From assembly GCA_017640505.1 (NCBI GenBank), contig JAEPQO010000003.1, positions 372,001-436,000 on the forward strand: a stretch of DNA of 64,000 nucleotides, written 5' to 3'. The notes under the pieces are model-generated. The model saw only the letters and a list, made by a program, of their open reading frames with translations, was not told the DNA's origin and searched no databases. Of this stretch, positions 9,469 through 64,000 are shown one piece after another. The translations under genes were made by a program, and so were the position numbers. Positions within the stretch are counted from its first letter, which is position 1, and each line of letters opens with the position of its first letter. Source of the DNA: Rhodospirillales bacterium (GTDB lineage: Bacteria > Pseudomonadota > Alphaproteobacteria > Rhodospirillales > Casp-alpha2).

Positions 9469-10131
9469 ATGAGCACCCATTCCATCAACGTCGATGAACG
9501 CCTGCGCGATTACATGCTGGATGTTTCCTTGCGCGAGCATCCGGTCATGCGCGCGCTCCGCGACGAAACGGCGGATCATGCGCACGCCGGCATGCAGATT
9601 TCGCCGGAGCAGGGGCAGTTCATGCAAATGCTGGTGCGCATGCTGGGCGCAAAGACGTGTATCGAGGTCGGCACGTTTACCGGTTATTCCGCGCTCGCCG
9701 TCGCATTGGCGCTGCCGGACGGCGGCCGGCTGGTGGCGTGCGATATCTCCGAGGAATTCACGAAGATCGGCAAACCGTTCTGGGAAAAAGCGGGTGTCGC
9801 CGACAAGATCGACCTGCGCATCGCGCCGGCCACCGAGAGCCTCGATGCAATGATCGCGGCGGGCGAGACGGGCAGCTACGACTTCGCCTTCATCGACGCC
9901 GACAAACCCGGCTATCCGGATTACTTCGAACGCTGTCTGAAACTGCTTCGACCCGGCGGGGTGATCGCCGTCGACAACATCTTCATGGGCGGCAGCGCCG
10001 CCGATCCGGAGACGGAGTCCGCAAACGCGCAAGCCATGCGCAAATTCAACGCCGCCCTGAAGGACGACACGCGCGTCGAGATTTCACTGATCCCCATCGG
10101 CGACGGGCTGACACTGGCGAGGAAGGTTTAA
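9469..10131 (+). CDS. SAM-dependent O-methyltransferase (catechol/caffeoyl-CoA type)
   Basis: A 220-residue class I methyltransferase of the Methyltransf_3 family. The SAM site is in CIEVGTFTGYSALAVALALP with the acidic VACDIS strand end. Metal-binding carboxylates are in YDFAFIDADKPGY and VIAVDNIF, as in magnesium-dependent catechol or caffeoyl-CoA O-methyltransferases. The ATG at 9469 follows CGGGAGA and matches the usual family length of about 220. It stands alone, divergent from DUF952. The acceptor is unknown. Confidence 0.88.
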   Translation: MSTHSINVDERLRDYMLDVSLREHPVMRALRDETADHAHAGMQISPEQGQFMQMLVRMLGAKTCIEVGTFTGYSALAVALALPDGGRLVACDISEEFTKIGKPFWEKAGVADKIDLRIAPATESLDAMIAAGETGSYDFAFIDADKPGYPDYFERCLKLLRPGGVIAVDNIFMGGSAADPETESANAQAMRKFNAALKDDTRVEISLIPIGDGLTLARKV

Positions 10132-12236: not shown

Positions 12237-14381
12237 TCAGGCGGCCGCCCGTTCCGAGCCGCCGGCGTTCTTGATGTTGTCGACGAAGCGCTGGATCTCC
12301 TGGGCGAGACGTTCGGCTTCTTCCGACAGGTTGCCCGACGCCTCGAGGATCACGCCCGCCGCCTGGCCGGTTTCGCCGGCCGCCTGCGTGACAGCGATGA
12401 TGTTCTCGCTGACTTCCTGCGTGCCGCTCGCCGCCTGCGCGATGTTCTGGGCGATTTCCTGGGTTGCGGCGCTCTGTTCCTCGACGGCCGCCGAAATCGC
12501 GCCGGCGATCCCTTCCAGTTCGGAGATGATCTCGCCGACGCCGCCGACGGCACTGACCGACGACTGCGTCGATGCCTGGATGGCGCTGATCTTGGCGGCA
12601 ATCTGATCGGTCGCTTTCGATGTCTGGCTGGCCAGATTGCCGACCTCGCTGGCGACGACGGCGAACCCCTTGCCGGCTTCGCCGGCGCGCGCCGCCTCGA
12701 TCGTCGCGTTGAGCGCCAGCAGGTTGGTCTGCTCGGCGATGTCCGTGATCAGCGAGACGATGTCGCCGATCTCGTTGGCGTCCAGCGCGAGCTGATTGAT
12801 GCTGTTGCTGGTTTCCTTGATCTCCTGCACCGCCTTGCCGGAGATGGTCGCCGACTGGCTGACCTGACCGCTGATTTCGGTGATCGAGGACGAGAGTTCC
12901 TCCGACGCGGTGGCGACCGTCTGCGCGTTCGACGACGCCTGATCCGAGGCCGCCGAGACGGCGGTCGACTGGGCGTTGGTTTCCTCGGCGAGCGAAGACA
13001 GGTTCTGCGCCGATTCACGCATCCGCACGGCGGCGGATTTGACGGCCTCGACGATGCCGCCGACACTGGTCGAGAGCTCGTCGGCGATCTTGTTCATCGC
13101 CGTACGCTTTTCGGCCTCGGCCTGCTCGCGTTGGATACGCTCCTGTTCGGCGCGCTCCTCGCGCTGGCGCTCTTCCTGTTCCTCGCGGTCCTTGCGCGAC
13201 TGCTCGACTTCTTCCGCCAGCCGCTTGGCTTCAACGGAGTTCTGCTTGAGCACGTCGACGGCGCGGGCCATTTCGCCCAGTTCGTCGCCGCGCTCGGTCC
13301 CGGTGACCTCAACGTCGAGGTTGTCGTTGGCAAGCTCGCCCATGACGCCGGTCAGTTCGGCGACCGGGCGGGTGATGGAGCGCACCATGACGACGCTCAT
13401 CAGCGCGATCACGACGGCGCCGATTGCGAGCGCGACTATAAGCGTGATCATGTGCGTGAATGCGCCCGATTCGATGGCTTCGATGTCGTGCACGAGGTCG
13501 TTCGCCACCTTGTCCTCGACCTTTTTCAGAAGGTCGATCTTGCCTGTGATCGTTTTGAACCAGGTGCCGGCGTCGATGCCTTGCAGCGGACCCTGGCCGA
13601 GGGTGTCGGTGGCGACCTTCCGCATGCGGTCGACATCGGCGATGGTCGGGCCTTTGACGGTTTCATTCAAATAATCGACCTGGTCCTTGGACGCGTAGTT
13701 TTCGAACAGGGACTGGTACGTGTCCTGCTGACCGATCAATTTCACGAAGCGGTTATAGACGGGTCCCGAGAACTGACCCGCACCGAAGCCGGCCGCGCCC
13801 ATGGCGCGTTCGATGCCGGCGCGTTCCTTGCCCTGCAGAATCGCCGTGTAGCCGGTGACGGCCTTGGTCATGCTGGCTTCGCCGCTGACCAGGGCCATCT
13901 GTTCGACGATCGACAGCATGTGCTGGATGGTGCCGCTGTAATACTTCGCCATGTCGCCGATGCTGGCCTTGAATGTATCGACGTCCTCGCGCTTGCCGGC
14001 CAGATGTTCCAGATCACCTTCCGCCTTGTCCAGTTTGGCTTTCAGCTCTTCACCGAACGCGGAATGATCGAACTCGGCGAACTTCGCCTTAAGCTCGCCG
14101 ATCCGGGTATCGGTTTCCTTGCGCTGCCCGGGCAGGGCGTCCTTGAACTTTTCGCCCTTGGAGCCGATGAAGCCGGCGGACATGCCGCGCTCGACCTGCA
14201 TTTCGTGGACGACGGCGCTGATGGATGGCGCAACGTGAATGAGCTTGGACAGCTTTGCCGCACCGCTGACGCGTTCAAACTCCTGTACGATCGCCATGCC
14301 ACCGAGAATCATCACGGCGACGACGGGAACGGCGAGCAGGATGGTGATGCGGCCGCCAACGCGGATATCTTGAAGTTTCAT
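12237..14381 (-). CDS. Methyl-accepting chemotaxis protein with NIT sensor domain
   Basis: A 714-residue chemoreceptor. One membrane helix lies at about residues 10-30. A periplasmic helical NIT-type domain (nitrate/nitrite sensing family) covers about residues 40-300, recognised by [13 protein letters not shown] and by [20 protein letters not shown] second membrane helix is near residues 312-335, followed by HAMP, a Glu/Arg-rich linker coil, and the signalling hairpin with the invariant tip [20 protein letters not shown]. It would signal to CheA. No che operon is adjacent, so it is an orphan receptor. Nitrate as ligand is inferred from the domain only. Confidence 0.92.
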
Positions 14382-43167: not shown

Positions 43168-43806
43168 ATGAATGAACGGTTACGTCTGAGCCAGCTCGTT
43201 TGCTCCCGGCTCTGCCACGATCTGGTCGGTGCCGCGGGTGCGGTGAACGCCGGGCTCGAGATTCTTGCCGAGATGGGCGCGCTGGACGACAGCGCCATGG
43301 CCTTGGCGACGAAGAGCGGGCAGGAGCTGACACGCCGCCTCGCGTTTTACCGCGTTGCTTTCGGCGCCGGGGGGGCAGGCAAGGGCGGTGCCGAGGTGCA
43401 GGTGCTGCGCAACCTGGCGGCAGAATTCCTCGAAGGGTCGAATGCCACGCTGGATTGGCCGGACTTCGGCGACGGCGTCCGCGATATCGATCCGGTGATG
43501 GGGAAGCTCCTGCTGAACCTGATCCTGATCGCGACCGAATGTCTGCCGCGCGGCGGGACGGTCAGCGTCCAGGTGGCAGAGGTGGAGGGCGGCGTCGGCC
43601 TGGCCGTTGCCGCCGCCGGCGACGACGCCGGACTGCGCGAGGATCTGGCCAACGGCCTGACGCCCGGAAAGGCACTCTCGACGATGGACAGCCGCTCGAT
43701 CCACAGCTACCTGACCCAGCTGCTGGTGCTGGAAGCCGGATGCGAACTGGAAGTGGCGGCGGATGACGATCAGGTCCGTTTCGCCGCCCTGTCGGCCCAG
43801 AGTTGA
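43168..43806 (+). CDS. chpT: Histidine phosphotransferase ChpT
   Basis: A 212-residue protein of the ChpT/HPTransfase family. The phosphorylated His is in LVCSRLCHDLVGAAGAVNAGLEIL near residues 10-33. The C-terminal part has the degenerate ATPase-like fold (LLLNLILIATECLPRGGTVSV, SYLTQLLVLEAGCELEV). In Caulobacter, ChpT relays phosphate from CckA to CtrA and CpdR. Its closeness to ctrA here supports the same circuit. CckA is not in the window. It overlaps the next gene by four bases. Confidence 0.92.
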   Translation: MNERLRLSQLVCSRLCHDLVGAAGAVNAGLEILAEMGALDDSAMALATKSGQELTRRLAFYRVAFGAGGAGKGGAEVQVLRNLAAEFLEGSNATLDWPDFGDGVRDIDPVMGKLLLNLILIATECLPRGGTVSVQVAEVEGGVGLAVAAAGDDAGLREDLANGLTPGKALSTMDSRSIHSYLTQLLVLEAGCELEVAADDDQVRFAALSAQS

Positions 43807-44265: not shown

Positions 44266-44973
44266 TCAGGCGGATGCCGTCTGTGCTTCCGGCATCGTCT
44301 CCGGGTCGCGCAGGACATAACCCCGGCCCCACACGGTTTCGATGTAATGCTCGCCACCCGTCGCATCCGCCAGCTTCTTGCGCAGCTTGCAGATGAAGAC
44401 GTCGATGATTTTCAGTTCCGGCTCGTCCATGCCGCCGTAAAGATGATTCAGGAACATTTCCTTGGTCAGGGTCGTGCCTTTACGCAGGCTGAGGAGTTCC
44501 AGAATACCATACTCCTTGCCGGTCAGATGGACCGGCTGCCCATCGACTTCGACCATGTGCGTATCGAGATTGACCGAGAGCTGCCCGGTATGAATGATCG
44601 AGTGCGAATGACCCGCGGAACGGCGTACGATCGCCTGCACGCGTGCCATGAGTTCCGACTTGTCGAACGGTTTGGTCAGGTAGTCGTCGGCACCGATGCC
44701 GAGACCTTTGACCTTCATTTCCGACTCGGTCAGGCCCGAAAGGATCAGGACCGGCGTCTGCACCCGGGAATCGCGTAACCGCCGCAGCACTTCCAGACCG
44801 TCCATATCCGGCAACATCAGGTCGAGAATGATGATGTCGTATTCATAAAGTTTGCCGATCTCCAGGCCGTCTTCACCGAGATCGGTTGCATCGACGACCA
44901 TGCCGGCGGTCTCAAGCATCAACTTGACCGTTGCCTGGGTTGTCGGATCGTCTTCAACTAACAGTACGCGCAT
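44266..44973 (-). CDS. ctrA: Cell-cycle master response regulator CtrA
   Basis: A 235-residue OmpR-class regulator. The receiver domain is [20 protein letters not shown], with the phospho-Asp in [22 protein letters not shown]-type sequence (here [17 protein letters not shown]). The winged-helix effector domain contains [40 protein letters not shown] and [20 protein letters not shown], the near-invariant CtrA recognition region. CtrA controls flagellar and cell-cycle genes in alphaproteobacteria. The start at 44973 (MRVLLVEDD) is universal in the family. The gene lies alone, convergent with chpT and the CheY-like gene. Confidence 0.97.
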
Positions 44974-45017
44974 TTTTTCCCCTCCGGGCCGCCCAAAACG
45001 CTGCGAATCGATATCTG

Positions 45018-45077
45018 TTAACCATATTACCATTTGAGGAGTCCGGGCCAAACCCTTTACGGGTCTTTTTGTTAACC
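45018..45077. promoter_or_regulatory. CtrA-type half-sites between ctrA and the OmpA-family gene
   Basis: TTAACCATATTACCAT at 45018-45033 and GTTAACC at 45071-45077 match CtrA half-site patterns (TTAACCAT or TTAA-N7-TTAA). They lie about 45-105 bases upstream of the ctrA start, consistent with autoregulation. A perfect TATAAT at 45270-45275 is a likely -10 for the divergent OmpA-family gene; the rest of the 331-base gap shows nothing else clear. Confidence 0.5.
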
Positions 45078-46099: not shown

Positions 46100-46195
46100 G
46101 ATACCAATCCCCTTATAAAGACGGATAAACCGGCACGCGGGCAGGGCCCCAGAAGACCGGGAATTCTGTCAATCGACGATTATAGGGAGGTGTCA

Positions 46196-46350
46196 TGTCT
46201 ACCACGATCAAGACGACTGTTCTGGCGGCGTTGGCATGTGTTGCCGCGACGGCCGTTTCCGCCGATGTGAAAGTTACGCCGCTCGGCGCCATCGACGGCG
46301 AGTTCTGCCCGTTCGACCGGGCGTTGATCTTCGAAGATCCCGACGGTCCG
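46196..46350 (+). pseudogene. MBL-fold metallo-hydrolase, N-terminal remnant
   Basis: After a strong ribosome site (AGGGAGGTGTC) the first 50 residues look like a genuine exported MBL-fold protein: signal peptide (TTVLAALACVAATAVSA) and DVKVTPLGAIDGEFCPFDRA followed by LIFEDPDG. In relatives this start leads to the metal motif HxHxDH some 80 residues later, which is absent. After about 46350 the frame continues only as antisense of the FliK-like gene and stops at 46567-46569. This looks like a deletion joining two convergent genes. Confidence 0.7.
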
Positions 46351-46359
46351 CGTCATCTG

Positions 46360-47571
46360 TGTCATGTCGGTCCGGAGCCGATTTGCGAGATCGGGCCGCA
46401 TTCGGTCGAGAATGCGCATCGGGCCGTCGCCCAGCCAGTTCTTGATGTCGCCGCCGCGAAGCGCCGACAGGAAAAAAAGCACGTTCGTGGCAAGCTGGGC
46501 GTCGGCACGTGGCAGCGCCGCCTGAAGAAGATGCTGGTGCGCGCCGGGCGCGGCATCACGGAGGGCTGAAAGCGCATCTTCGAATGCGAACCACTCGCCC
46601 TCCAGCAGCGGTGCGGCGGTCATGTGCAGCGGTCCGTGCTGGGCCGAGCCCGTCGTCGGCGCCTGAAGCTGCACCACTTCCAGGCGCACCTCGGTGCCGA
46701 TTGGCATCGGCTGTGCCGTCGGCAAGGTGACCGGTCCGGCATGCGTTTGCACCAGCGTTTGTCCGACGCCATGGGTGCCGGCGACCACGCCTGTCAACTG
46801 TGCGCCCGGTGCGAGGGAAATCTGGCCCTGAAGCGGCGGCGGCACGAGGCTCTGCGGCGCTGTCGCCGGCACGTTTACGGACACGATGCGGAATTCGATA
46901 CTGCTGCCGGCGGCAAATGTGGTGACGGTGCCGGCAGGTGTGGTACTTGCAGCCGGGACCGTCGACCCGCCACCGGCAACGGCGGGCGCCGGCGCGCCGA
47001 CAGCCTGCGTTGCAGCCTGGGTGCCCGCTTGCGGACCACTGAGACCGGGGCCGGCGGCTGCGGTCTGCAACGTGGAGGTGGCGGCTGCGGCAGTTTGCGT
47101 CGCTGTTTGTACGATCAGGGCGCCGTCCACGCTGACGGGCCGCAGCAGTGTCGCTGTCACGATGGCGCCGGGAACGACTTTCACGACGCCCGGCACTGCA
47201 ATCTGCGTGGTTGCGGCGGCGGTCTGCCCCGTTGCCGGCGAACCGGCCGATGCGGGAAAGCTCAGCGCCTTCCCGTCGGGGAGCGCCAGTTGAACTTTCG
47301 GCGCGGCGCCCTTGCTCAGAAGCTGCAGGATCAGCGCATCGCCCGTCTTCAGCACCGGTTGCGCATCGGCCGGCAGTTTGACCGTGATCTCACCCAGCCG
47401 GCTCGACACCTTGAGCTCGGCCGCTTCCGAGATGGCGGCAACGATCACGTCGAGCTTTGCGCCCAGCGGCAGCTCAGCAAGCTGCGCCTGGGTGAGGGTA
47501 ACGGCGAGTCGCTGCGGTGCCGCCTGTCCGGCAGGGGGGGGCGTCGGTGACGGGGGCGCGACTTCGCTCAT
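46360..47571 (-). pseudogene. fliK: FliK-like flagellar hook-length protein, 3-prime truncated
   Basis: About 400 genuine residues follow an ATG at 47571. The N-terminal section (AVTLTQAQLAELPLGAKLDV, then LKTGDALILQLLSKG) is followed by a long Ala/Thr/Gln/Pro-rich linker. A later part has WFAFEDALSALRDAAPGAHQ and LFFLSALRGGDIKNWLGDG, seen in hook-length control-type proteins next to flhG. After DLANRLRTDMTQM the frame runs into antisense of the MBL-fold remnant and ends at 46180, so the C-terminal domain is missing. It is seven bases downstream of flhG. The FliK name rests on context and composition. Confidence 0.65.
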
Positions 47572-47578
47572 GCCATGC

Positions 47579-48379
47579 TCATTGATCCGCGTTGCGGCCC
47601 CGGCGGATGATGCGTGCGATGTGTTTCACGTCGTCCGCCGCGGCGCTGTCGGGGGCGCGGTTGAGGATGGACTGCTGAGCCCGGATTGCGGCCCGGACCT
47701 TCTCGTCACGGCGCACGATGCCGAGGTGCTCGGGCGAATACTTGAGGAAGCCCTGGCACGCCTTGTTGAGAGTGTTGTAGGTGCGTTCTCCCTCGGTCGT
47801 CGAGTTGACCATATTGGTGACCACCTTGATTTCGGTTTCGGGGCGTTCGTTGTGGGCGATCTTGATGAAAGCATAACCGTCGGTCAGCGATGTCGGCTCG
47901 TCCGTGACGACGACGATGATCTGGTCGGCGGCATAGGCGAGGCGGCGCACGGTGCTTTCCACCCCGGCACCGAGGTCGAGGATGACGTAGTCGTAGTTGG
48001 CGGCGAGCAGGGCCAACTCGTCCAGCAGCGACTGCAAGCGGTTGGAGGCGAGGTTCGCCAGTGCGCCCGATCCGGAGCGGCCGGCGATCACGTCGAAGCC
48101 GCCTTCCTCGCAGTAGTCCATCGCCTGCGCGAGGCTGGCGCGGCCTGCGAGCACCGCACCCAGGTCGTTCTTGGTCGAAAGGCCCAACTGAATATCCAGG
48201 TTGGCCAGCCCGAGGTCGCCGTCGAACAGCAGCACGCGGCGGTCGACCATGGCGAGCGCGTGCGCCAGCGTGATCGAGAACCATGTCTTGCCGACGCCGC
48301 CCTTGCCGGAGGCAATGGCGATGACGTTGCCCTTGGTGCGGGCGGGGCGGTCGGGAGTGGCGGGAGTCGTTTCGCTCAT
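47579..48379 (-). CDS. flhG: FlhG-type MinD/ParA ATPase
   Basis: A 266-residue MinD-family ATPase. The deviant Walker A is IASGKGGVGKTWFSITLA at about residues 22-39. LLFDGDLGLANLDIQLGL and YVILDLGAGVESTVR follow, then VVVTDEPTSLTDGYAFIKI. FlhG regulates flagellar number, with FlhF as partner. Its ATG overlaps the stop of the fused FliF-FlhF gene (ATGA), as flhF-flhG pairs usually do, and it appears complete. Confidence 0.92.
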   Translation of the reverse strand: MSETTPATPDRPARTKGNVIAIASGKGGVGKTWFSITLAHALAMVDRRVLLFDGDLGLANLDIQLGLSTKNDLGAVLAGRASLAQAMDYCEEGGFDVIAGRSGSGALANLASNRLQSLLDELALLAANYDYVILDLGAGVESTVRRLAYAADQIIVVVTDEPTSLTDGYAFIKIAHNERPETEIKVVTNMVNSTTEGERTYNTLNKACQGFLKYSPEHLGIVRRDEKVRAAIRAQQSILNRAPDSAAADDVKHIARIIRRGRNADQ

Positions 48380-49575
48380 TGCGCGGCCTTTTTCTGGATC
48401 GGCTCTTCCGGGTCGTCGTCGGGGACGATCAGTTGAGCCAGTGAAACGGGATTGATACGGCTGAGGCCGTCTGCGACCTGCGGGTTGATGCTGACGTTGG
48501 CGACGGCGATGCGGCCGGCCAGTGCGGCGGCGAGGATACCGCCGAGCCTGCGTGTCATATCGAGGCGGCTGATGACCATGCGCTCGGCGCCGATCTCCGA
48601 GAATGCGCGGGCGGTATCGGCGGATTCCATGGCATCGGCCCCGGCAGCAAGCACGAGGATGATTTCCGCGCCCGCAGCTCCGGCAAGGGCGCGCAGCGAC
48701 TGCATGTCGTCATCGTCGAAGGGGTTGACGCCGGCGGTATCGATAATCGCCGCGTCGGCCGCTTGAATGGTCTCTTTGCAGGCCGCCAGCGCATCCACGT
48801 CGGGGGCGGTGACGAGATCCATCTCGAGGATTTTGGTGAATGCCTGCAATTGTTCAATGCCGCCTGCGCGTTTGGTGTCGGTGGTGGCGATGAAGACCTG
48901 TTTGCCGGCGAACCGTGCGTGCGCGGCCAGTTTCGCCGCCGTGATCGTCTTGCCGGCACCCGGCGGCCCCACCAGCATCAGCGGCCGTTGCTGCACGTCG
49001 AAATCGATGGGCTTGAACGCCGCCCCCATGTCGATGGCGGCGGCCAGCGTCATCGCCGGATCGGATGCTTCGTCGACCAGGTCGCAGTCTCTCAGGACTT
49101 TTTCGGTCAGGTGCGCCGGCAGGCCGTGCGCGGTCAGGACCTGGGACAGGAAATCGCGCCGTGTGGCGGCGTCCATCGGCGCGGTATCGGCCTGCTCCTC
49201 GACCTCGACCGGGATATCGATATCGTCCTCGATCGCGGCGGTCACCCAGCACAGGCCGTCCGTCTCGTCCATCTCGGTGGAGACGATGATGGCGTCGAGG
49301 CGGAGTTGCATGACCCGGTCCTGCGGCACCAGGATCTGCGTGCCGTTGTGCTTGAGTTCGTACGGGATATTGCGGCTTTCCAGTTCCTGAACGATGCCGG
49401 CGGCATCGGACTGCTCCAGTTCGCCGTAAAGTGTCGTCAGGCTCGGTGTCGAAAGCTTGGTGGCGAAGAACACCAGGAAGCCGAGTAGGCCCAGGATGAC
49501 GCCGCCCATGATGGCCAGCCGCATCGGACCGAGATTTCTTATCGCCTGAACAAAGGTTTCCACGTGCGTCCCCAC
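48376..49575 (-). CDS. FliF-FlhF in-frame fusion (both partners truncated)
   Basis: A 399-residue chimera. Residues 1-93 are the start of FliF, the MS-ring protein: FVQAIRNLGPMRLAIMGGV, a membrane helix at about 20-39, LSTPSLTTLYGELEQSDAAG and ILVPQDRVMQLRL. From residue 94 the sequence is FlhF, the SRP-type GTPase for polar flagella, entered at DAIIVSTEMDETDG so that its first 25 or so residues are missing. GTPase motifs are complete: GPPGAGKT (about 203-210), DTKRAGGIEQLQAF, DTAG and SRLDMTRRLGG. In normal alphaproteobacterial order fliF, fliG, fliH/N and flhA precede flhF, so a deletion of that block fits. The junction is near 49296. GTG start; a second GTG lies four codons on. Confidence 0.9.
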   Translation of the reverse strand: MGTHVETFVQAIRNLGPMRLAIMGGVILGLLGFLVFFATKLSTPSLTTLYGELEQSDAAGIVQELESRNIPYELKHNGTQILVPQDRVMQLRLDAIIVSTEMDETDGLCWVTAAIEDDIDIPVEVEEQADTAPMDAATRRDFLSQVLTAHGLPAHLTEKVLRDCDLVDEASDPAMTLAAAIDMGAAFKPIDFDVQQRPLMLVGPPGAGKTITAAKLAAHARFAGKQVFIATTDTKRAGGIEQLQAFTKILEMDLVTAPDVDALAACKETIQAADAAIIDTAGVNPFDDDDMQSLRALAGAAGAEIILVLAAGADAMESADTARAFSEIGAERMVISRLDMTRRLGGILAAALAGRIAVANVSINPQVADGLSRINPVSLAQLIVPDDDPEEPIQKKAAQ

Positions 49576-49614
49576 TTCATCCCTGGCGGTTTTGCGCGCG
49601 TGCGCATTTCCACC

Positions 49615-49621
49615 GTTAACC
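49615..49621. promoter_or_regulatory. CtrA half-site upstream of the fliF end
   Basis: GTTAACC lies 40 bases upstream of the FliF-FlhF start and 118 bases from sciP. It resembles half of a CtrA site, which would fit the known control of fliF-class operons. A single half-site is weak evidence. Confidence 0.35.
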
Positions 49622-49738
49622 CTGATTGGATGCTAGGGGCGGTTTAGTGAATAAGAAGTTAATGACCGGCAAAAATTGCCTAGCTCCGGCGCCGGTTCCA
49701 TATGAAACCGGTGGCCGGAAGAAGGTGAATCATGAGAT

Positions 49739-50035
49739 TCAGGCGTTGCGGTAGCTTTTGATACGTGTGGTGCGAAGCCCGCGCACCCCGTGCCGTTCAA
49801 GAAGCCGCTCCCAGGAGCGGAATTCGTCGATCGACAGCTGGTACATACGGCACGCTTCTTCAAGCGTGATCAGGCCGCATCTGACACCGGCGACGACATC
49901 GGCCTTGCGTCTCGGCACCCAGCGTGTGGTGTCGGTCGGCGGCAAATCGGCCATGGTCATCGGCGGGCCGCTCGGGCTCAGAGCTTCCGAACGGTACGGC
50001 CGGTTTCCCTCGCGATGGTGTTTCAGTTCGGTCAT
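49739..50035 (-). CDS. sciP: SciP-type CtrA inhibitor (DUF1153)
   Basis: A 98-residue DUF1153 protein. The conserved core from residue 31 reads LPPTDTTRWVPRRKADVVAG, VRCGLITLEEACRMYQLSID and EFRSWERLLERHGVRGLRTT, ending RIKSYRN. This is a Trp/Arg-rich helix-turn-helix that in Caulobacter binds CtrA and blocks transcription of CtrA targets in G1. It is placed right beside flagellar genes controlled by CtrA. The N-terminal 30 residues are variable. Confidence 0.92.
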   Translation of the reverse strand: MTELKHHREGNRPYRSEALSPSGPPMTMADLPPTDTTRWVPRRKADVVAGVRCGLITLEEACRMYQLSIDEFRSWERLLERHGVRGLRTTRIKSYRNA

Positions 50036-50144
50036 TGCGTTCTGCTTTCCGATATTTGCTTCGTTTTCTGTCCCTGAGAATCTTGGGAGGTATAGAAAAG
50101 CAGAAGGGCCTTAAAAAAGGCCTAAACCCTAAGGTAAATTCCCG

Positions 50145-51719
50145 TTAACGCTTTGCTTTTGCCGAGGTAAAGCTATCCAGGCGGGTATTGGCATCGGCGA
50201 TCACGGACGCCCAGTCGCCGGGCGCGGGCTGGCGCAGCAGCGTGGCGGACGGGTACCAGGGACTGTCGTCCCGGCCGAGGAAATAACGGCTGTCGGGATC
50301 GAACGCCAGCAACACCCAAAGCGGCCGGCCGAGTGCCCCGGCCAGGTGCGCGGGTGCGCTGTCGACGCTGATCACGAGGTCGAGCGCCTGCATCAGGGCC
50401 GCCGTCGCCGCGAAGTCCGTCAACCGGTCCCGCACGTCGGCGGCGCGATCATGCCCGAGCGTGTTGCCGCGCGGCCCGACCAGCAGGTTGAAAAAACAAA
50501 CGTCATCCCGCGCCAGCAGGGGCGAGAGCATGTCCGGGGCGATCGAACGGCTGTAATCATGCGCCTGTCCCGGGTTGCCGGCCCAGACGATGCCGGCCGT
50601 GGGGCGTCCGCCAGCGATATCCGCGACGTCGTCCTGCCATCGCTGTACGTCGGCCGGGCGCGCCCGAAGGTAGGGAACCGTCGCCGGGATCGTTTCCATC
50701 ACCGTGCCCATCAGGAACGGTAGGCTCATCAGCGAGGCATGAACGTCCGCTTCCGGCAGCGGACCGTCGAGCGCATGGACGGCGACGGTGTCGTCGAAGC
50801 TTTCGCGAAACAGCCCGGTCAGCGGCGGCTCGCACATCAGCGCGACGCGGGCGCCCCGTTGCTGCAGGACCGGGATATAGCGCGCGTACATCAACGCGTC
50901 GCCGTAGCCCTGCTCGTTCCACAGCAGCAGTGTTTTTCCCGAAATATCGTCGCCCTGCCATGCCGGCATCGGGAGCTTTTCGGGCAGCGCGTGCCACCCC
51001 GGGATGTCCCAGCGAACCTCGTAGTCACGGAACCCGGCGGCAAGATCGCCGGTCTGGATCAGAAGGGACGCCTTTTTGAGCCGTGCCTCGACATAATCCG
51101 GGTCGGCGGCAATGGCCCGATCCGCCCAGGATAGGGCGTCGGCGTGGTATCCGGCCGCCGCCAGGTATGAGGCTTTGTTGAGGCGGTAAACGGGATGATC
51201 CGGGTTCGCCTGCAGCGCTGCATCGATGGCCTGCGCGGCATCCTCCATCCGGCCGAGCCGCTGCAAGGCGTTACCGCGATTGGTCAATGCATCAGCGAAG
51301 TCAGGTTTGACGGCCAGCGCGGCATCGTAATGTCTGAGCGCCTCGTCGACGTTACCCATGTCATAGAGCTGGACGCCGAGGTTGTTCAGGATCTCGGCCG
51401 TGCCCGGCTGGAGCGCGTCGGCCTTTCGATAGGCTGCGAGCGCCTCATCACGCCGTCCGAGATCGCGCAGCAGATTGGCGAGATTGAACCATGCCAGGGC
51501 ACTTTTTGGCGACTTGTCGATGGCGCTGCGATAGGTCTCCTCGGCTTCGGCGAGTTGGCCGTCGGCACGCAGCGCGGCGCCCAGATTGACATAGAGCTCA
51601 CCCACGTCCGGGTGCAGGTCGATGACAGCTTTGAACCCGGCTGCGGCCTCGGCGAAGTTACCGGCGGCGAAGTCTGAAGCCGCTTGTTCGAGAATGCGCT
51701 GGGCGTCCCGGCCGCTCAT
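50145..51719 (-). CDS. TPR protein with glycosyltransferase family 9-like C-terminal domain
   Basis: A 524-residue protein. Residues 1-230 contain about six tetratricopeptide repeats (for example LYVNLGAALRADGQLAEAEE, AWFNLANLLRDLGRRDEALA, ALTNRGNALQRLGRMEDAAQ). The rest resembles ADP-heptose glycosyltransferases (TLLLWNEQGYGDALMYARYI, GIVWAGNPGQAHDYSRSI, DLVISVDSAPAHLAGALGRP). TPR-GT9 proteins next to flagellin genes often modify flagellin, which is inferred here from the neighbouring DUF115 gene. Its ATG overlaps the stop of that gene (ATGA). Confidence 0.85.
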   Translation of the reverse strand: MSGRDAQRILEQAASDFAAGNFAEAAAGFKAVIDLHPDVGELYVNLGAALRADGQLAEAEETYRSAIDKSPKSALAWFNLANLLRDLGRRDEALAAYRKADALQPGTAEILNNLGVQLYDMGNVDEALRHYDAALAVKPDFADALTNRGNALQRLGRMEDAAQAIDAALQANPDHPVYRLNKASYLAAAGYHADALSWADRAIAADPDYVEARLKKASLLIQTGDLAAGFRDYEVRWDIPGWHALPEKLPMPAWQGDDISGKTLLLWNEQGYGDALMYARYIPVLQQRGARVALMCEPPLTGLFRESFDDTVAVHALDGPLPEADVHASLMSLPFLMGTVMETIPATVPYLRARPADVQRWQDDVADIAGGRPTAGIVWAGNPGQAHDYSRSIAPDMLSPLLARDDVCFFNLLVGPRGNTLGHDRAADVRDRLTDFAATAALMQALDLVISVDSAPAHLAGALGRPLWVLLAFDPDSRYFLGRDDSPWYPSATLLRQPAPGDWASVIADANTRLDSFTSAKAKR

Positions 51720-53048
51720 GCCGCCTTGCCGTGGCAGTGCTTGAATTTCTTGCCCGACCCGCACGGGCACGGGCTGTTACGGGCCGGTGCGGGCGGTTCG
51801 GGGAAGCGGACATCGGCGGTTCGAAAAATGGTATCAAGCGGCGGCGGCGCTTTGGGGTCGGTGCCGCCGAACCGCTCCAACGCGTCTTTTTCCAGTGTTT
51901 CGAGCCCGTGCAGCAGCGCGTCGACCCCGATCTTGCCGAACCTCTGCACATCCTCTTCACGGGCGACCCGCGCGAGGTAGCGCTCGAAGAACAGCAGCAT
52001 GGCGAAAAAAGAGCCGCGCATCAGGATGTTGACGCAGTGATTGACTCCCTTCGGCGGCGGCAGAAAATAACTGATCCGGGGCTGGAATAGATCCATCAAG
52101 CGGATCAGGTAATCCTTGCGGGTGATGTCGTCGATATCATTCAGGCGCTCACGGACGAGATCGCAATAGCCTCTGACGGTTTCGGTGAATGTTCTCCCCA
52201 TCCAGGTAAAGTCCTGTTCCGCGCTCAGGTAACGCGGCATAGCGTCAATGATCTCGCGGACCGCGCGATGCTTGTCATGGTGCTTCTTTTCAAGGGCCAG
52301 ATCTTCTGGCCGGAGCGGCAAAGCTCCTGCGATCAGCGCACCGTCGCTGCAATTTTGGATGGATCTGTCCTGGCCGAACACCTTGAGCAGTTCGACAAGA
52401 TTATTGATCGAGGAAAACAGTCCGTAGTTCGTTCGTGACGTTCCGCCGAAATTGGCGGGGACTTCTATGCCATAATCGATTCTGATTTCACCGGCGTCTG
52501 CCGTGTAGTGATAGGCATCCTTCGAATGATGGAGTGCGTCAGAGCGCGAACCGCAATCCATTCCAAACATGTACACATCGGTAAACCCGAGTTCCAGCGC
52601 CAGACATAGGCCGGCGTTCCCGACGGTCGGGTCCGGCATGAAAAGGGTGCATTCATAGGATGGAGCGAAAAGCGGGAAGGCGCAAAGTGATGAACGGAAG
52701 AAAAAGATGATGTCGCGAAACTGATCAAGCACGTCGGGATCGATGCTTGTCGAGGCGATGAGGGTGACAGCGGAAAGATCGTGCTGTTCGGCCATCTGCC
52801 GGGTTAACGGCGAGACGCTGGCGTTTTCAGTTTCAATTTGGAAATCAGGCGTAATCCCGTTCACGAGCAGGGGTCGAAGTGCAGACCCGCAAGATATGAT
52901 CACGGCGCCGGGGCTGTGTTCTTTGATCTTGGCAATCGACTCATCAAGAGACGGGCCACTGGCGACAACGAACACGGGCGTGTCGATCGGACGGTCGAGT
53001 TGACGTTTGAATACATGCGCATCGCGCTGCGTCAGATTTCTGTACGTG
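51716..53048 (-). pseudogene. DUF115/MptE-like flagellin-modification protein, 5-prime truncated, SEC-C tail
   Basis: About 440 genuine residues in the family of DUF115 (6-hydroxymethylpterin pyrophosphokinase MptE-like, motility-associated Maf type). Core motifs: PVFVVASGPSLDESIAKIKE, ISCGSALRPLLVNGITPDF, PDPTVGNAGLCLALELGFTD and YMFGMDCGS. The C-terminus is a SEC-C zinc motif (NSPCPCGSGKKFKHCHG). The expected N-terminal domain is missing. Upstream of about 53048 the reading frame is out-of-frame flgE sequence, and no good start precedes the core. A later internal start may still allow a short product. Confidence 0.8.
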
Positions 53049-54386
53049 TTCCAGACCGTTCGGATTGGTGAAGTCGTAGAGCGGAATCTTGTAAATCGTC
53101 CGTTCCGTGCCGTCGCTGAACGTGCCAACGACGTTGCCGGCGTTATCGAACGAGATATCCGCCAGATCGGCAATGCCAATCCCGTTCTGCGACGTGCGGT
53201 TTGGCGTAAAGGCACCGGCGAACTGGGTCATGGAACTGACGTCGATCGTGATATCCGATGTTTCCGCATTGTCCCATGTCATGGAGAGGGTCAACGTGCC
53301 GTTCGACGACAACTGCCCAAGTGAAGAGAAGGTCATCGGATCCGAGAGGGCACCGGCGGAGGTGGCCGTAACGGTCGCGGTGCCGGTTGATTCGTTAGCG
53401 ACGGCCTCTTCGACAGTTATGGTCGCGCCGTCGGCGCTGATAGCGGAGATCGTGAAGGTCGAGTTGTTATTGTTCGTGCTCGAAAACGTAATCTGGTCCC
53501 CAACCACGAACGAATTGAAAGCGCCGGTTGCGCCGATGTTGGCCGTGGTGTTCTGGAGTGTTACCGTCTTCGCAGCCGCGTCGAATCTCAGTTCGGAGTC
53601 GTAGGCAAATCCCGTATTGGCGGCAGATCCGGCGGACCTGGAGAATGCCGTCGACGGTCCAAGCGTATAGGACGTGAGGTTGTCGGCACGGACGTTCACG
53701 CGCCACTCGTTGTCTGCGAGCATGGGGACGAAATCGAAGGAAATCTGTCGTGCCGCGGCGGCCGAGTCATATGTCGTCAGCGTGTAGGTCTCGGTATCGT
53801 CCCCAAATTCCGAGGTCGATGGCAGGTTGAAGTCCAGCAGCGCCGTCGACGTCGGCTGGCCCTGGTCTACGAACGCATACTGATCGACGCGCATCGGCGC
53901 GGCAGCGGAGGACGTGAACGTTCCGTCCTGGTTCATCGGCGAGCCGAGAACGAAATAGCCGTTCTTGTCGACGAGATAGCCATTGGCAACAGTGATTGTA
54001 CTGTTGTCGTCTGAAGTCACGGTGCTGGTCTGGCCATCAACGGTATTGATGCTGAACGACCCATCGCGCGTGTAGAAAATCTGATTGCTGGCGGTGAGTT
54101 CGGGCTGAAGCGCAAAGAACCCCTTGCCGACAATCGCAAGGTCCAATTCGTTGTTGGTCGGTGTCACCAGGCCCTGGATGTCGTTGGTCGCGCGCGAATA
54201 GGGCTTAACGCCGCCGGTGTCGCTTTGCGCGAAGAAGTTCTTGCTCAGGACCGTTTCGAACTGGGTATCGGTGCGCTTGAACCCGCCGGTGTTCACGTTG
54301 GCGATGTTGTACCCGATCGTGTTCAAACGGTGCGACTGGGACTTCATGCCCAGGGTCGATGGCTGAAATAGACCGTATCCGCTCAT
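53049..54386 (-). pseudogene. flgE: Flagellar hook protein FlgE, C-terminally truncated
   Basis: About 446 genuine residues. The start SGYGLFQPSTLGMKSQSHRL and NTIGYNIANVNTGGFKRTDT are the rod-hook basal motif. NNELDLAIVGKGFFALQPE and YTRDGSFSINT follow, then variable Thr/Ser-rich hook domains, and ERTIYKIPLYDFTNPNGLE near the end. Normal FlgE continues through about 100 further residues to a C-terminal helix that assembles the hook. Here the frame passes into the DUF115 gene out of phase and stops at 52944. Without that helix the protein could not polymerise. Confidence 0.88.
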
Positions 54387-55739: not shown

Positions 55740-57392
55740 TCATCTGCGTAGCGTCGCGTTCATCAGAACTACGGGCACGATCCCGACGATGACGATAAAT
55801 AGTGCCGGCATCGCCGCTTGCTCCAACAACTCGTCCTTGGCGAACTGATAGACGTAAGTGGCCAAAGTTTCATAGTTGAAGGGGCGAAGCAACAACGTCA
55901 TCGGCAGTTCCTTCATCACGTCGACGAACACAAGCAACCCGCCGGTGATCAGCGACAGGCGCATCAGCGGCAGGATCGTCTCGATCAGGCTGCCTGCGAA
56001 CGTTCGGCCAAGGACCCGGCTCGCGTTCATCATATTGGGCGGCAGCCGGCCGAGCCCGGTCGTCACCGCCCCGTAACCGATTGCCTGGAAGCGGATCGCA
56101 CAGGCAACGGCGACAAGTCCGACGCCGCTGGTCAGCCAGCCGTGGTAGGTGATCCCGAATACCCCGTCCATGATCGCGGCAATACCGTCGTCCAGTGTTC
56201 CGGCGGCCGTGATCACGCCGATCGCCAGAATTGTCCCGGGGAAGGCATAACCCATAGATGCGACAGCGGTGATGCGTTTCAGCCATTTCCCGCCCTGGTA
56301 ATGCGCGACAAAACCGAGGAACGATGCCGATGCGACGATCAGCAGTGCGACGCTCGCGGCGAGGGAAATCGAATGCCACGCCGCGGATAACTGGGCGTTG
56401 CTGAACTCGAGGGAATAACCTTTGAGGACGAAATTCAGGAGCACGCCCACCGGGATGACGAACCCGATCACGATGGGTGCAAGGCAGGCGGCAAGGCAGA
56501 GCAGGGCTTTGCCGCCGGACAGTTTTTGAAGCGGCAAGGATGCCGATTTGCGGCTTGTGTTGATGAACCGCCGCCTCGACCGTGCGAGGATTTCCATCGC
56601 GAGCAGTGCGATGATGAACAGGAAACACACCGACGCGATCTTCGCGGCGGCGGGCAGGCTGTTCATGCCGAGCCAGACGTTGAAGATGCCGAGCGTGATG
56701 GTCTCGATGGCGAAGTACTCGACGACACCGAATTCGGAGACGGTTTCCATCATCACAAGGGCCAGGCCGGCGACGATGGCCGGCCGGGCGAGGGGGAGTC
56801 CGACCGACCAGAACTCGCTGCGTTTCGCCAGCATCCCGACCTCGAAAAGCGATGCCGGTGTCAGCATGAAGGCGGCGCGCGCCATCATGTAGACATAGGG
56901 ATAAAGCACCGCGCCCAGGACGAGTGTCGCACCGCCCATCGAGCGGATCTCCGGGAACCAGTAGTCGCGTGCGCTTTGCCAGCCGAAGACGTCGCGCAAA
57001 ATCTGTTGGACCGGTCCCGCATATTCAAGGAAGTCCGTGTAGGTATAGGCAATCAGGTAGGTCGGCACGGCCGCGGGCAGCAAGAGCATCCATTCCAGCA
57101 CGCGTCGGCCCGGAAAGGCATAACGCGTCACGAGCCATGCCGTGCTGACGCCGAACAACAGGCTGATACAGGCGACGCCCGCCATCAGCACGAGCGTGTT
57201 GCCGATATAACGGGGCAGAACGGTCCGGAACAGGTGTGGCCACAGGTCGCCGGTATCACCGGCGGCGGCGATGAAAACGGACAGGATCGGGGCCAGAAAA
57301 ACGAGCGTCAGCCCCAGCGAGGCGACGCCCCAGGACGTGAGGCGCAGGTGGACCTTACCGGTGCCGGGCGTCGTGGCCGCGCGGGTTACCAT
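55740..57392 (-). CDS. fbpB: Ferric iron ABC transporter permease
   Basis: A 550-residue permease made of two homologous halves of about six helices each, as is usual for FbpB/SfuB. Two coupling loops are visible: EVGMLAKRSEFWSVGLPLARPAIV and ASRVLGRTFAGSLIETILPLMR. It moves Fe(III) delivered by FbpA across the inner membrane. Its start overlaps the stop of fbpA by seven bases. Confidence 0.92.
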   Translation of the reverse strand: MVTRAATTPGTGKVHLRLTSWGVASLGLTLVFLAPILSVFIAAAGDTGDLWPHLFRTVLPRYIGNTLVLMAGVACISLLFGVSTAWLVTRYAFPGRRVLEWMLLLPAAVPTYLIAYTYTDFLEYAGPVQQILRDVFGWQSARDYWFPEIRSMGGATLVLGAVLYPYVYMMARAAFMLTPASLFEVGMLAKRSEFWSVGLPLARPAIVAGLALVMMETVSEFGVVEYFAIETITLGIFNVWLGMNSLPAAAKIASVCFLFIIALLAMEILARSRRRFINTSRKSASLPLQKLSGGKALLCLAACLAPIVIGFVIPVGVLLNFVLKGYSLEFSNAQLSAAWHSISLAASVALLIVASASFLGFVAHYQGGKWLKRITAVASMGYAFPGTILAIGVITAAGTLDDGIAAIMDGVFGITYHGWLTSGVGLVAVACAIRFQAIGYGAVTTGLGRLPPNMMNASRVLGRTFAGSLIETILPLMRLSLITGGLLVFVDVMKELPMTLLLRPFNYETLATYVYQFAKDELLEQAAMPALFIVIVGIVPVVLMNATLRR

Positions 57393-58432
57393 CCAACACG
57401 GTCGATGACCCGCTGGGCTTCGGGTGCCAACTCGGCAATGCGTGCGATCGGCATGTCGTCCTCTTTAAACTCGCCCCAGGATTTCAACGTTTCGGACGGT
57501 TCCACGGCCGGATTTACCGGGTACTCGAAATTGATCGCCCCATATAAGTCCTGCGCGGTCTTGGAGGTCAAGAACTCCAGGAAACGGACGGCTTCTTCTT
57601 TGTGCTTGGAATGCTTCGCGACACCGCCGCCGGATATGTTCACGTGCGTGCCACGGCCGTCCTTGTTCGGAAAGATCAATTGCACGGACGCCGCCCATTC
57701 GCGCTGGATCGGATTGTCGGAATCGAGAAGCTTACCGTAATAGTAGTTGTTGATGATCGCGATATCGCAGACGCCCTCGAAGATCGCCTTCACCTGGGCG
57801 CGGTCGTTGGCCTGCGGGCGGCGCGCGAGATTGTCGACAAGACCTTGTGCCCATTTTTCCGTGGCTTCCATGCCGTCGGCGTTGATCATGGACGCGACAA
57901 GCGCACGGTTATAGACGTGGCTGCCGGGGCGCACGCAGATGCGGCCCTTCCATTTCGGGTCGGCGAGGTCCTCGTAGGTCTTGATGGCGTGCACGTCCTT
58001 CACTTCACGGGCGACGGCGATCACGCGGGCGCGCTTGGAGAGCGCGAACCATGTGTCGTTCGGCGCGCGCATATGCGGCGGAATGTTTTTCTTCAATACC
58101 TCGGACTGAACCGGTGCCAGGAGATCTTTGTCCGCATAGACATGCAGCCTAGCGATGTCGACGGTCAGGATAACGTCGGCAGGGCTGCGTTCGCCTTCGG
58201 CCATCAGCCGCTGGGCGAGGCCTTTCGAGGCGTAAACGATATTCACCTCGGTGCCGGTTTCCTTCTTATAGGCGTTGATGAACGGCTCGATCAGGAACGG
58301 CTGGCGGTGGGAATAGATGTTGAGCACCTTTTCCTGAGCGCCGGCGGCGGATACACCAAGCGCGAGGACCACCATCGCGCCGCCAATTATGGCGGCAAGG
58401 CTTGCGGTTTTGGCTTTGGCGGGGAATTGCAT
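57386..58432 (-). CDS. fbpA: Ferric iron-binding periplasmic protein
   Basis: A 348-residue substrate-binding protein. An ATG at 58432 with GGAGACCTAAAACC upstream starts a classical signal peptide (LAAIIGGAMVVLALGVSAAG, then AQ). Mature features: LNIYSHRQPFLIEPFINAYK, ADVILTVDIARLHVYADKDL, the tyrosine iron ligands in NNYYYGKLLD, and the FbpA-like GTHVNISGGGVAKHSKHK. It captures Fe(III) in the periplasm. Its own start and signal are clear, yet the frame is open all the way through the desaturase gene upstream. Confidence 0.93.
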   Translation of the reverse strand: MQFPAKAKTASLAAIIGGAMVVLALGVSAAGAQEKVLNIYSHRQPFLIEPFINAYKKETGTEVNIVYASKGLAQRLMAEGERSPADVILTVDIARLHVYADKDLLAPVQSEVLKKNIPPHMRAPNDTWFALSKRARVIAVAREVKDVHAIKTYEDLADPKWKGRICVRPGSHVYNRALVASMINADGMEATEKWAQGLVDNLARRPQANDRAQVKAIFEGVCDIAIINNYYYGKLLDSDNPIQREWAASVQLIFPNKDGRGTHVNISGGGVAKHSKHKEEAVRFLEFLTSKTAQDLYGAINFEYPVNPAVEPSETLKSWGEFKEDDMPIARIAELAPEAQRVIDRVGW

Positions 58433-59398
58433 GGTTTTAGGTCTCCAGTGGAAAATCCGTCCGACGCAACCGGCCGCTTCGACAAGAGGACGGGCGTAAA
58501 CGGCAAGAAGGCTATGATGGTCGGCGGTACCGTCCGTGATGCCGAAACGGATGGTCTGCCGGTGTCCGGCTAGGCACAGGCTGCCGCCGATCCAGTCCCA
58601 GACGGCGAGGACCACGCCGAAGTTCCGGTCGTGATGTTCGGCGGCCAGGGAATGGTGGATCTGGTGCTGCGCCGGCGAGATGAAAATGTGCTCGAGCGTC
58701 CGGCCGTAGGAAATCCATACGTGGGAGTGCCTGAGATTGGACCCGGCAACGTTGAAGGCGAACAGAATGACGTTGGCGCCGAAAACGCTGACGAGATCGA
58801 CCCGGTCGCCGAGGAAAAAGAAAAAGACGGCCAAGACGGCAGCTTGGGTGAAGACCGAGCGCAACGCGAAAAGCACGCCGTCCACGGGGTGCGTGCGGAA
58901 GACCGTGAACGGCGTCAGGGTTTCGGCCGAGTGGTGCACCTTGTGAAAACACCATAGCACCGGCCAGCGGTGTAGCAGGCGGTGCAGAAGGTACTTGGTC
59001 AGGTCATCGGCCAGAAACAGGGCAACGGTGAACCCTGCAGCCACCGTCCATGCCGGCGCGCCCGTCCAGATCATGGGCCGGCCGTCGAATGCAATGTGCA
59101 GCCAATCGAACAGGAGCGTCGCGATGGTCAGTTTGCCGAGCAGGCGGGGCGCGACGCCCATCATGAAAAGCTGATTGAGGGCGGTGATGAGATAATCGGT
59201 GCGCGCAGACCGCGACCACCAGATTTTGCCGCTCAGGATTGTTTTGGTGGCGGGTAAAAGGCGTTGACCGCTGAAGAAGATCTGTACCAACAGCGCGATC
59301 AGGAACGCGCTGGCAAGGTACCCGGCAAAAACGCGCTTTTCCGGATCGAAAAGCGGTCCGATCAGTTGGTCAAGATATGCGCCGATTGAGACGTCCAT
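58433..59398 (-). CDS. Sterol desaturase/fatty-acid hydroxylase family protein, no stop before fbpA
   Basis: About 322 residues with several membrane segments and the histidine clusters of the family: HRLLHRWP, HKVHHSAE and HQIHHS, which bind a diiron centre. It is like the bacterial sterol-desaturase-related proteins that hydroxylate or desaturate lipids. The end (IRFGITDGTADHHSLLAVYA then RPLVEAA) resembles the usual C-terminus, but no in-frame stop occurs before the fbpA ATG. So a 670-residue fusion with FbpA would be made, or fbpA is translated separately. The ATG at 59398 gives MDVSIGAYLDQLIGP. Confidence 0.85.
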
Positions 59399-61155: not shown

Positions 61156-61581
61156 ATGAAAGTCAGCAAAACAGGTTCGGCGAAAGGCCCCGACGCCACG
61201 AAGAAGGCCAAGAAATCTTCGGCGGAGGACGGTGCGTTTGCTGACACGCTACGCGGTGTTTCCGGCGCCGATGCGGCGGAGCAGGCTCAGGCGACGGGTG
61301 GTGTCGGTGCGGTGAATTCAATCCTTGCCGTGCAGCAAACGGCGGACGCGACGGACCATCGTTCGCGTGGGCTGATGCTGGAATACGGCAACGATCTCCT
61401 GGATCGGCTCGAGCAGATCCGCGTTGCGGTGCTCACAGGCACGATTTCCAAGGACAGATTGCAGGAACTCGCGCGTAAACTGCGGGAGCGAAAAAGCGCC
61501 AGCGACGACCCGAAGCTGAATGACCTGATCGCCGAGGTCGAGTTGCGAGTCGAAGTGGAAATCGCCAAATTCACCCGGTAG
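61156..61581 (+). CDS. fliX: Flagellar assembly regulator FliX
   Basis: A 141-residue protein of the FliX family: after a low-complexity start it has VNSILAVQQTADATDHRSRG, LMLEYGNDLLDRLEQIRVAV and TGTISKDRLQELARKLRER. In Caulobacter, FliX couples basal-body assembly to the class III transcription activator FlbD. It seems complete here. It normally stands beside flgI, which is absent, its divergent neighbour now being the iron operon. Confidence 0.9.
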   Translation: MKVSKTGSAKGPDATKKAKKSSAEDGAFADTLRGVSGADAAEQAQATGGVGAVNSILAVQQTADATDHRSRGLMLEYGNDLLDRLEQIRVAVLTGTISKDRLQELARKLRERKSASDDPKLNDLIAEVELRVEVEIAKFTR

Positions 61582-62935: not shown

Positions 62936-63709
62936 TCAGAATGGGAAGATGATATCCCAGACCTGCGTGCCCCAGCGCGGCTGCTGCAAGCTGCTCAGTG
63001 TGCCGCGGCCGCCGTAGGCAACGCGCATTTCTGCAATTTTTTCATGACTGATCGTGTTGTCGCTCTCGATATCCTCGGGGCGGACGACACCGGTAACCAT
63101 CAGTTCGCGAAGTTCCGCGTTGACGAGAATTTCCTGGCGCCCCATCACGACCAGCGAGCCGTTCGGCAGGATCTGCGTGACCACGGCCGCGAAGGTGAGG
63201 TCGATCGTTTCCGACCGTTCGATATCGCCTTCGCCGTTGGTGGCGTGAACGTTGTTGAAGCTCATCAACGATTCCGGATTCACCGCAGCGGCGGCGCCGG
63301 GAATGATATTGGCGAATTTGGTCTCCAGGCCGAGAATGTTGGTGACGTTCGTGTCTTCGCTGTCGTTGCGGTCGCGCTCCGTCGAATTCTCGAGTGTGGC
63401 ACTGTCGGACAGATCCAGTTTCACGGTCACGATGTCCCCGATTTCCTTGGCGCGGTGGTCCTTGAAGAAGGCCCGCGCCCCGTTACGCCATAACGAGCTC
63501 GGGTTCTCCTCCGCGACCTGCGGGGCCGGCATCGGCAGGCTGACCGGCCGGTAGTCCGGTTTCGCCGTCGGGTTCTCGATCGTCGTCAGGTTCGGACCGG
63601 TGCCGACATCGGACAGGCGCGTTGCCAGATTGCACCCGCTCAGGCTCGTGACGGCGACAACAGCGGCAATAATCGGAAGGCTGCGCTTTTTGCTGTTTGC
63701 GGTAATCAT
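62936..63709 (-). CDS. flgH: Flagellar L-ring protein FlgH
   Basis: A 257-residue outer-membrane lipoprotein that forms the L ring. The lipobox is SLSGC after a short signal (IIAAVVAVTSLSGCN). Conserved FlgH segments: ENPSSLWRNGARAFFKDHRA, KEIGDIVTVKLDLSD, EGDIERSETIDLTFAAVVTQ, LPNGSLVVMGRQEILVNAEL and VTGVVRPEDIESDNTISHEK. It appears complete, unlike flgE. It is encoded just after flgA on the same strand (48 bases). Confidence 0.95.
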   Translation of the reverse strand: MITANSKKRSLPIIAAVVAVTSLSGCNLATRLSDVGTGPNLTTIENPTAKPDYRPVSLPMPAPQVAEENPSSLWRNGARAFFKDHRAKEIGDIVTVKLDLSDSATLENSTERDRNDSEDTNVTNILGLETKFANIIPGAAAAVNPESLMSFNNVHATNGEGDIERSETIDLTFAAVVTQILPNGSLVVMGRQEILVNAELRELMVTGVVRPEDIESDNTISHEKIAEMRVAYGGRGTLSSLQQPRWGTQVWDIIFPF

Positions 63710-63757: not shown

Positions 63758-64000
63758 CTAGTTGAGGCTCATCGAGAGCTGTTGCGACAAGGACTTCACG
63801 GCAACTCGGCCGGGACCGATCACTTCGGCTTCGACGATCTGGTTCGAACGGCCGTTCTTGATCTGCACGATGTCGCCGTCCGCACCATCCTGCATTGCCT
63901 TGCCCTGTGCCGTCAGGATCATGTTCGGCACCTGGTGAATGATCGTGACGAGGCTGTTCTTCTCTACCAGCACGGGGCGTGTGACGTCGTTGTTGCGGAT
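63758..64000 (-). CDS. flgA: Flagellar P-ring assembly protein FlgA (C-terminal part, cut by window edge)
   Basis: The visible 80 residues are the C-terminal SAF-like domain of FlgA, the P-ring chaperone: NNDVTRPVLVEKNSLVTIIH, MILTAQGKAMQDGADGDIVQ and IVEAEVIGPGRVAV. The frame is open to the window end. The pair flgA-flgH is the usual order, with flgG/flgF expected upstream beyond the edge. Confidence 0.9.
   Translation of the reverse strand: MRNNDVTRPVLVEKNSLVTIIHQVPNMILTAQGKAMQDGADGDIVQIKNGRSNQIVEAEVIGPGRVAVKSLSQQLSMSLN

Follow-up and report, generated by a model that had tools for sequence, protein, structure and literature searches.

Does the flagellar region of an alphaproteobacterium of the order Rhodospirillales record a motility system that has been dismantled by deletion, or segments that dropped out when the genome was assembled? 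The question is raised by a stretch of 64,000 nucleotides, here called the window (bases 372001-436000 of contig C6 of the genome G000, GenBank assembly GCA_017640505.1), in which a preliminary description made from the letters alone had placed three deletion-like joins within flagellar genes. Comparison with related genomes suggests that several large deletions, independent of one another, have recently cost this lineage its swimming and chemotaxis, a reading to which we assign a probability of about 0.8. At least six abrupt joins occur on two contigs, four of them flagellar and two in chemotaxis genes; each ends inside genes, with about 3.6-52 kb missing compared to a congener. Besides these six clear joins, a third contig carries a join between the gene of a methyl-accepting chemotaxis protein (MCP) and a transporter gene, and the chemotaxis cluster has probably suffered two smaller losses.

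The G000 assembly amounts to 3.95 Mb in 12 contigs and is 98.55% complete. We aligned the whole of C6 (545,891 bases) to contig C22 (493,228 bases) of the congener G001, and part of C6 to the one-contig genome of a second congener, G003. C6 and C22 proved largely collinear from approximately C6:207604 to the contig end, and the genes adjacent to the joins have open frames. At four places, J1 to J4 (Table 1), the alignment switches abruptly between two points that lie far apart in both G001 and G003. The joins previously placed near 46355, 49296 and 53048 were all recovered within about 10 bases, each abutting points that are kilobases apart in the two congeners. Complete genes stand at the same place in G001 and G003 for all four joins, and also in the congener G005 for J1 and J2. 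No N gaps were found in the sequence printed across the joins. At J3 two open reading frames (ORFs) meet out of frame, and at J1 a plus-strand gene for an MBL-fold hydrolase adjoins putative fliK on the minus strand. The proposal that each join strikes flagellar genes on both sides fails for J1, where the partner of putative fliK is non-flagellar.

Relative to G001 and G003, J1 removed the end of putative fliK, fliJ, fliI, and most of the hydrolase gene. Because G003 lacks three extra genes that G001 carries between fliI and the hydrolase gene, the ancestral deletion at J1 may have been nearer to 4 kb. The loss at J2 comprises the end of fliF, fliG, fliH, fliN, motA, flbD, flhA, and the start of flhF, the middle genes being named from G003. 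J3 took the start of a gene for a Maf-type protein, flgE, flgD, glycan-type genes, the flagellin gene, and flbT, and further flgK, flgN, a flgJ-type gene, flgI, and the end of a second FlgE-like gene. Most of flgA, flgG, flgF, fliL, and the start of fliM are missing at J4; approximately the last 229 of 378 fliM codons remain in an uninterrupted frame. The names FliF, FlhF (GTPase domain), Maf, FlgE, FlgD, flagellin, FlbT, FlgN, rod-binding FlgJ-type, FlgI, FliI-type ATPase, FliJ, FliM, FlhA, and MBL fold are backed by family matches. From sequence and gene order we take the remaining proteins to be FliG, FliH, FliN, MotA, FlbD, FlgF, FlgG, FliL, FlgK, FlgA, FliK, CheA, and CheY, and likewise presume the glycan-type genes. 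The regulatory genes ctrA, sciP, chpT, and flhG, reported earlier as intact, indeed have full-length frames, and fliX and flgH are full length compared to those of the relatives. The same had been said of flgA, which is in fact cut by J4.

Table 1. Joins, genes and gene remnants in and next to the window (window coordinates; missing lengths refer to G001).
Feature	Position	Strand	Observation
J1	46342-46346 (46340 fits equally)		microhomology ACGG; 7,975 bases missing
J2	49294-49297		8,764 bases missing
J3	53052 or 53055		about 52,420 bases missing
J4	64015-64022 (C6:436015-436022), just past the window end		3,813 bases missing
chpT	43168..43806	+	Pfam HPTransfase; NCBIfam ChpT models match below their cut-offs; intact
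ctrA	44266..45051	-	intact
putative fliK remnant	46180..47571	-	C-terminal ~132 aa lost
MBL-fold hydrolase, N-terminal remnant	46195..46569	+	first ~59 codons kept; similarity to relative ends after J1
flhG	47579..48379	-	MinD/ParA-type ATPase; name from gene order; intact
in-frame chimera FliF(1-94)::FlhF	48376..49575	-	FlhF from about residue 25 to its end
sciP	49739..50035	-	CtrA inhibitor; intact
Maf-type protein (MptE-like, SEC-C)	51716..53215	-	N-terminal ~165 aa lost
FlgE-like hook-family protein	52944..54386	-	last ~77 aa lost
fliX	61156..61581	+	intact
flgH	62936..63709	-	intact
flgA remnant	63758..64000	-	87 aligned C-terminal codons of 334

We then searched the whole G000 assembly with 11 of the deleted proteins, using concatenated protein queries; FliH, FlbD, FlgD, FlgE, FlgJ, FlgK, FlgL, FlgN, FlbT, the end of FliF, CheA, CheB, CheR, CheZ, and the products of the glycan genes stood outside this set. 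FliG, FlhA, and FliJ had no match anywhere in the assembly. MotA and FliN were matched only by more distant paralogues common to G001 and G003, and for FlgG, FlgF, FliL, flagellin, FliI, and FlgI nothing was found in G000 beyond such shared paralogues. Those left in all three genomes include an orphan FlgG (61% identity), a FliL-like protein, and ATP-synthase-type relatives of FliI. The orphan FlgG-like gene is located at C4:1288500 (L008:9998-10780), far from the flagellar loci, in G000 and is present in G001 and G003 as well. The PF00460 family, which covers FlgE/F/G/K-type proteins, matched at four places in G000. The FHIPEP family, to which FlhA belongs, was matched nowhere in G000 and once in each of seven congeners. 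A second flagellar system in G000 was considered and rejected, given the lack of FlhA and the presence of the FlgG paralogue on C4 in both congeners. The search for these 11 proteins thus uncovered no complete flagellar set elsewhere in the genome that could stand against the joins. Within the family, FHIPEP was matched in 39 of 48 genomes; eight others besides G000, some of them incomplete, had no match, and FlhA-type loss in the family may be recurrent. A parallel case suspected in G008 was discarded, as its FliF fragment (81517-81792) lies near the end of a contig of 82539 bases.

The chemotaxis genes show a related pattern. CheA, like CheW itself, carries a CheW domain, and a family search of the whole G000 genome returned no CheW domain, CheA not being searched as a protein. 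The chemotaxis cluster of the congener G005 lies on its contig C13, where CheW, CheZ, CheB, and CheR were recognized by family and CheA by sequence; contig C8 of G000 follows this cluster in order, with interruptions. At one join, che-b (C8:213730-213724), an in-frame fusion links a PAS-domain protein to the end of an unrelated one, and 10.4 kb of G005 sequence including cheA, cheW, and cheZ is missing. At the other, che-a (C8:212108/212109), a receiver domain of the cheY type passes directly into the end of an MCP, and 3.6 kb including cheB and cheR is missing. Two further losses with blurred edges are probable deletions, namely that of an MCP near C8:215.6-215.9 kb and that of about 1.5 kb inside a kinase gene near C8:216.2 kb. 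On C4, near position 1,725,640, the C-terminus of an MCP (L169 ~9640-10100) adjoins an opposite-strand BCCT transporter (L169:8586-9941) that, judged by the family profile on the G000 sequence only, lacks approximately the first 115 profile positions; this join is probably another deletion. In total, G000 holds 13 MCP signalling domains, 12 of them in open frames of 457-1075 aa and one in a frame of 154 aa, compared to 0-3 in each of the five congeners searched (G001, G003, G005, G006, and G007). One of the MCPs is encoded in the window at 12237-14381. In G001, contigs C12 and C32 (L163, L164) end where the chemotaxis cluster would fall. The lack of the cluster in G001 is therefore uninformative, and we rejected its use as evidence of an ancestral absence.

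The main alternative to deletion is an assembly artefact: flagellar and chemotaxis segments would have failed to assemble, and the contig ends on either side of them would have been joined without a gap. The two G001 contigs that end at the chemotaxis cluster show that an assembly can miss loci of this kind; moreover, MCP domains are repeated in G000, MCP genes are the site of both che-a and the C4 join, and the joins are seen in the assembly only. The joined points share 4 bases at J1, 2 at J2, 0 at J3, and 3 at J4, as well as 2 at che-b and 0 at che-a, all of them lower bounds because the relatives are only approximately 78% identical. Joined points that share 0-4 bp and no long repeat argue against repeat-driven misassembly, and the suggestion that a scaffold had been wrongly closed at repeated flagellar segments is accordingly disfavoured, the more so as the missing proteins searched for occur on no contig except as shared paralogues. 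Among 4000 artificial joins drawn from C6/C22 blocks the mean microhomology was 0.59 bases, compared to 1.83 for the six joins (p = 0.0055; n = 6, with the che joins scored against G005 and the null against G001) and 2.25 for the four flagellar joins alone (p = 0.004). This excess over random joins argues against contigs having been closed up arbitrarily. No Ku was found in the six genomes of the genus that were searched; hence, the joins were probably not made by classical non-homologous end joining but by slippage or alternative end joining.

A further point against an artefact comes from the genes at the breakpoints. We counted as abutting joins all places with at most 40 bases between the joined points in G000 and at least 500 bases between them in G001, using the aligned contig pairs C6/C22 and the first 400 kb of C4/C26, so that about two thirds of the genome lies outside this comparison. 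Thirteen such places were obtained, J1-J4 and nine others. All eight breakpoints of J1-J4 fell at least 60 bases inside orthologous genes, as did none of the 18 at the nine other joins. The che joins and the MCP join on C4 were kept out of this background because they had been found by looking at motility loci. We also counted unaligned protein ends of at least 40 aa. On C6/C22, 28 were present among 284 orthologues: seven at the flagellar joins, 18 where the DNA itself is aligned, and three where it is not. The 10 ends among 268 orthologues on C4/C26 divide into eight with aligned and two with unaligned DNA. An unaligned protein end over aligned DNA reflects a different start or a diverged frame, and none of the five non-flagellar ends with unaligned DNA falls at one of the abutting joins counted above. 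Among the abutting joins on these contigs, only the flagellar ones cut orthologous genes. Two side observations were made on C4: the orthologue of G001 C26 347219-347761 lies in two frames at 338640-339174, a possible small frameshift, and an insertion of 11.8 kb relative to G001 at 303489-316433 splits a gene. Taken together, the microhomology, the absence of the missing proteins from the whole genome, and the confinement of gene-cutting to motility loci make true deletion much the better explanation, and we regard an assembly artefact as unlikely.

If the joins are deletions, how many events do they represent? At least two are required, because separate contigs are affected. J1-J4 cannot have arisen by one simple deletion, since the segments between them survive in their original order, and the term 'stepwise' used in the preliminary description is apt in this sense. 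Its first proposal, that motility was recently lost step by step while the CtrA system was retained, is supported by the absences, the che joins, the gene-cutting, and the microhomology. Illegitimate recombination between points with little or no microhomology would have produced the deletions. The first of them would have abolished motility, and later ones may have been favoured or tolerated, since the leftover flagellar and chemotaxis genes would be useless and costly. Selection presumably held ctrA, chpT, sciP, an iron-type ABC transporter, and the other genes between the joins.

A burst of deletions aimed at a single regulon could also account for six to nine large losses that hit three separate loci and left undecayed fragments, for example through transcription-linked breaks in co-regulated genes that were repaired at microhomologies. 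This alternative jointly covers directed deletions or one multi-break event and the retention of chimeras as working proteins. The in-frame FliF::FlhF and PAS-protein chimeras may function, the former as a candidate membrane-tethered FlhF GTPase beside intact FlhG. It retains the SRP54-type GTPase domain and scores below the cut-off of the FlhF model; the fusion was matched whole in G000 only among 26 genomes, the two genes being separate in the relatives where both were matched. We consider such a burst improbable. A different candidate for a join within the window, an ORF at 57386-59398 (minus strand, 670 aa), combines a desaturase/hydroxylase-type part with an ABC substrate-binding part, both recognized by weak family matches below the cut-offs. 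It was dismissed as another join since a 671-aa ORF of this type also occurs in G001. The putative fliK remnant had no Pfam or NCBIfam match.

To place the loss of swimming and chemotaxis in time, we turned to the flagellar genes that are left. Full-length frames are retained for flhB, fliR, fliE, flgC, flgB, fliP, two motB-like genes, flgH, fliX, and flhG. No small inactivating mutations were seen in the retained flagellar genes compared. Because these genes are undecayed, the loss of motility is recent relative to the divergence of the species. If motility had instead been gone for long, the remaining genes would be drifting or serving another function. A slight excess of lineage-specific amino-acid changes points in this direction: with G003 as the outgroup, G000-specific and G001-specific changes numbered 122 and 85 in 12 retained flagellar genes, namely the 11 listed above and the fliM remnant, compared to 946 and 958 in 62 others, among which flagellar-neighbourhood genes of unsure function were counted (Fisher p = 0.013). 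These figures derive from 83 gene trios, of which nine were dropped beforehand, six located at joins and three with distances above 0.6. However, a codon-count test that permutes genes gave p = 0.24, and no truncation was seen outside the joins in those retained flagellar genes that were compared. We therefore judge an old loss to be very improbable.

Several observations weigh against a recent loss by independent deletions. The relaxation of selection in the retained flagellar genes is at most weak. Two of the joins, J3 and che-a, are without microhomology, and all joins are known from the assembly of one genome only. Unless the loss was very recent, 12 MCPs still encoded in long open frames would be surprising in an established non-chemotactic lineage. 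CheW was also unmatched in G001, G003, G004, and G006 and was found among the congeners searched only in G005 and G007, so that lacking chemotaxis genes does not by itself set G000 apart. Finally, approximately 21.9 kb of the G000 chemotaxis region has no counterpart in G005, and the synteny between the two stops at G005 base 6193, beyond which the match continues on another contig; both indicate that the chemotaxis locus has undergone other rearrangements.

A loss this recent could have occurred during passage in the laboratory. Such an adaptation is a sub-case of the recent loss that differs in timing alone, and its share lies within the probability given above. The lack of decay in the retained genes agrees with it, as does PMC7677240, in which a 35-day evolution of Campylobacter jejuni in broth led to loss of motility, including large and irreversible deletions in motility genes, while the non-motility mutations included no large deletion. 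At least six deletions at separate loci are, however, many for a short passage, and laboratory adaptation presupposes a cultured source. We view it as a possible but less likely timing of the recent loss. Large deletions in motility genes are common to that experiment and G000. In C. jejuni, the deletions and point mutations were distributed among five populations, whereas G000 has at least six deletions in one genome and no small inactivating mutation in its compared retained flagellar genes.

Two other systems bear comparison. In Escherichia albertii, chemotaxis genes have been selectively deleted (PMC4700944) with their neighbours spared, as in G000. There, the flagellar genes are conserved and the MCPs missing, whereas in G000 flagellar genes are deleted and MCPs remain. 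In Rhodospirillum rubrum, ctrA, cckA, and chpT are associated with flagellar genes (PMC12363192). G000 likewise has CtrA phosphorelay genes beside flagellar genes; unlike in R. rubrum, those in the window outlast broken flagellar genes. Among reports on motility loss, none described the present case in its title or the opening of its abstract, and such a report may exist. The process as such is already known; what seems unusual is how well its traces are preserved and how many joins a single genome carries. Under the favoured reading, a complex organelle has been caught in the middle of its dismantling, before decay blurs the steps, so that breakpoints, fragments, and spared regulators are still readable. 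The case makes it possible to test what CtrA, SciP, ChpT, and FlhG do without a flagellum to control, and what role is played by 12 long MCP genes in a genome in which no CheW domain was found.

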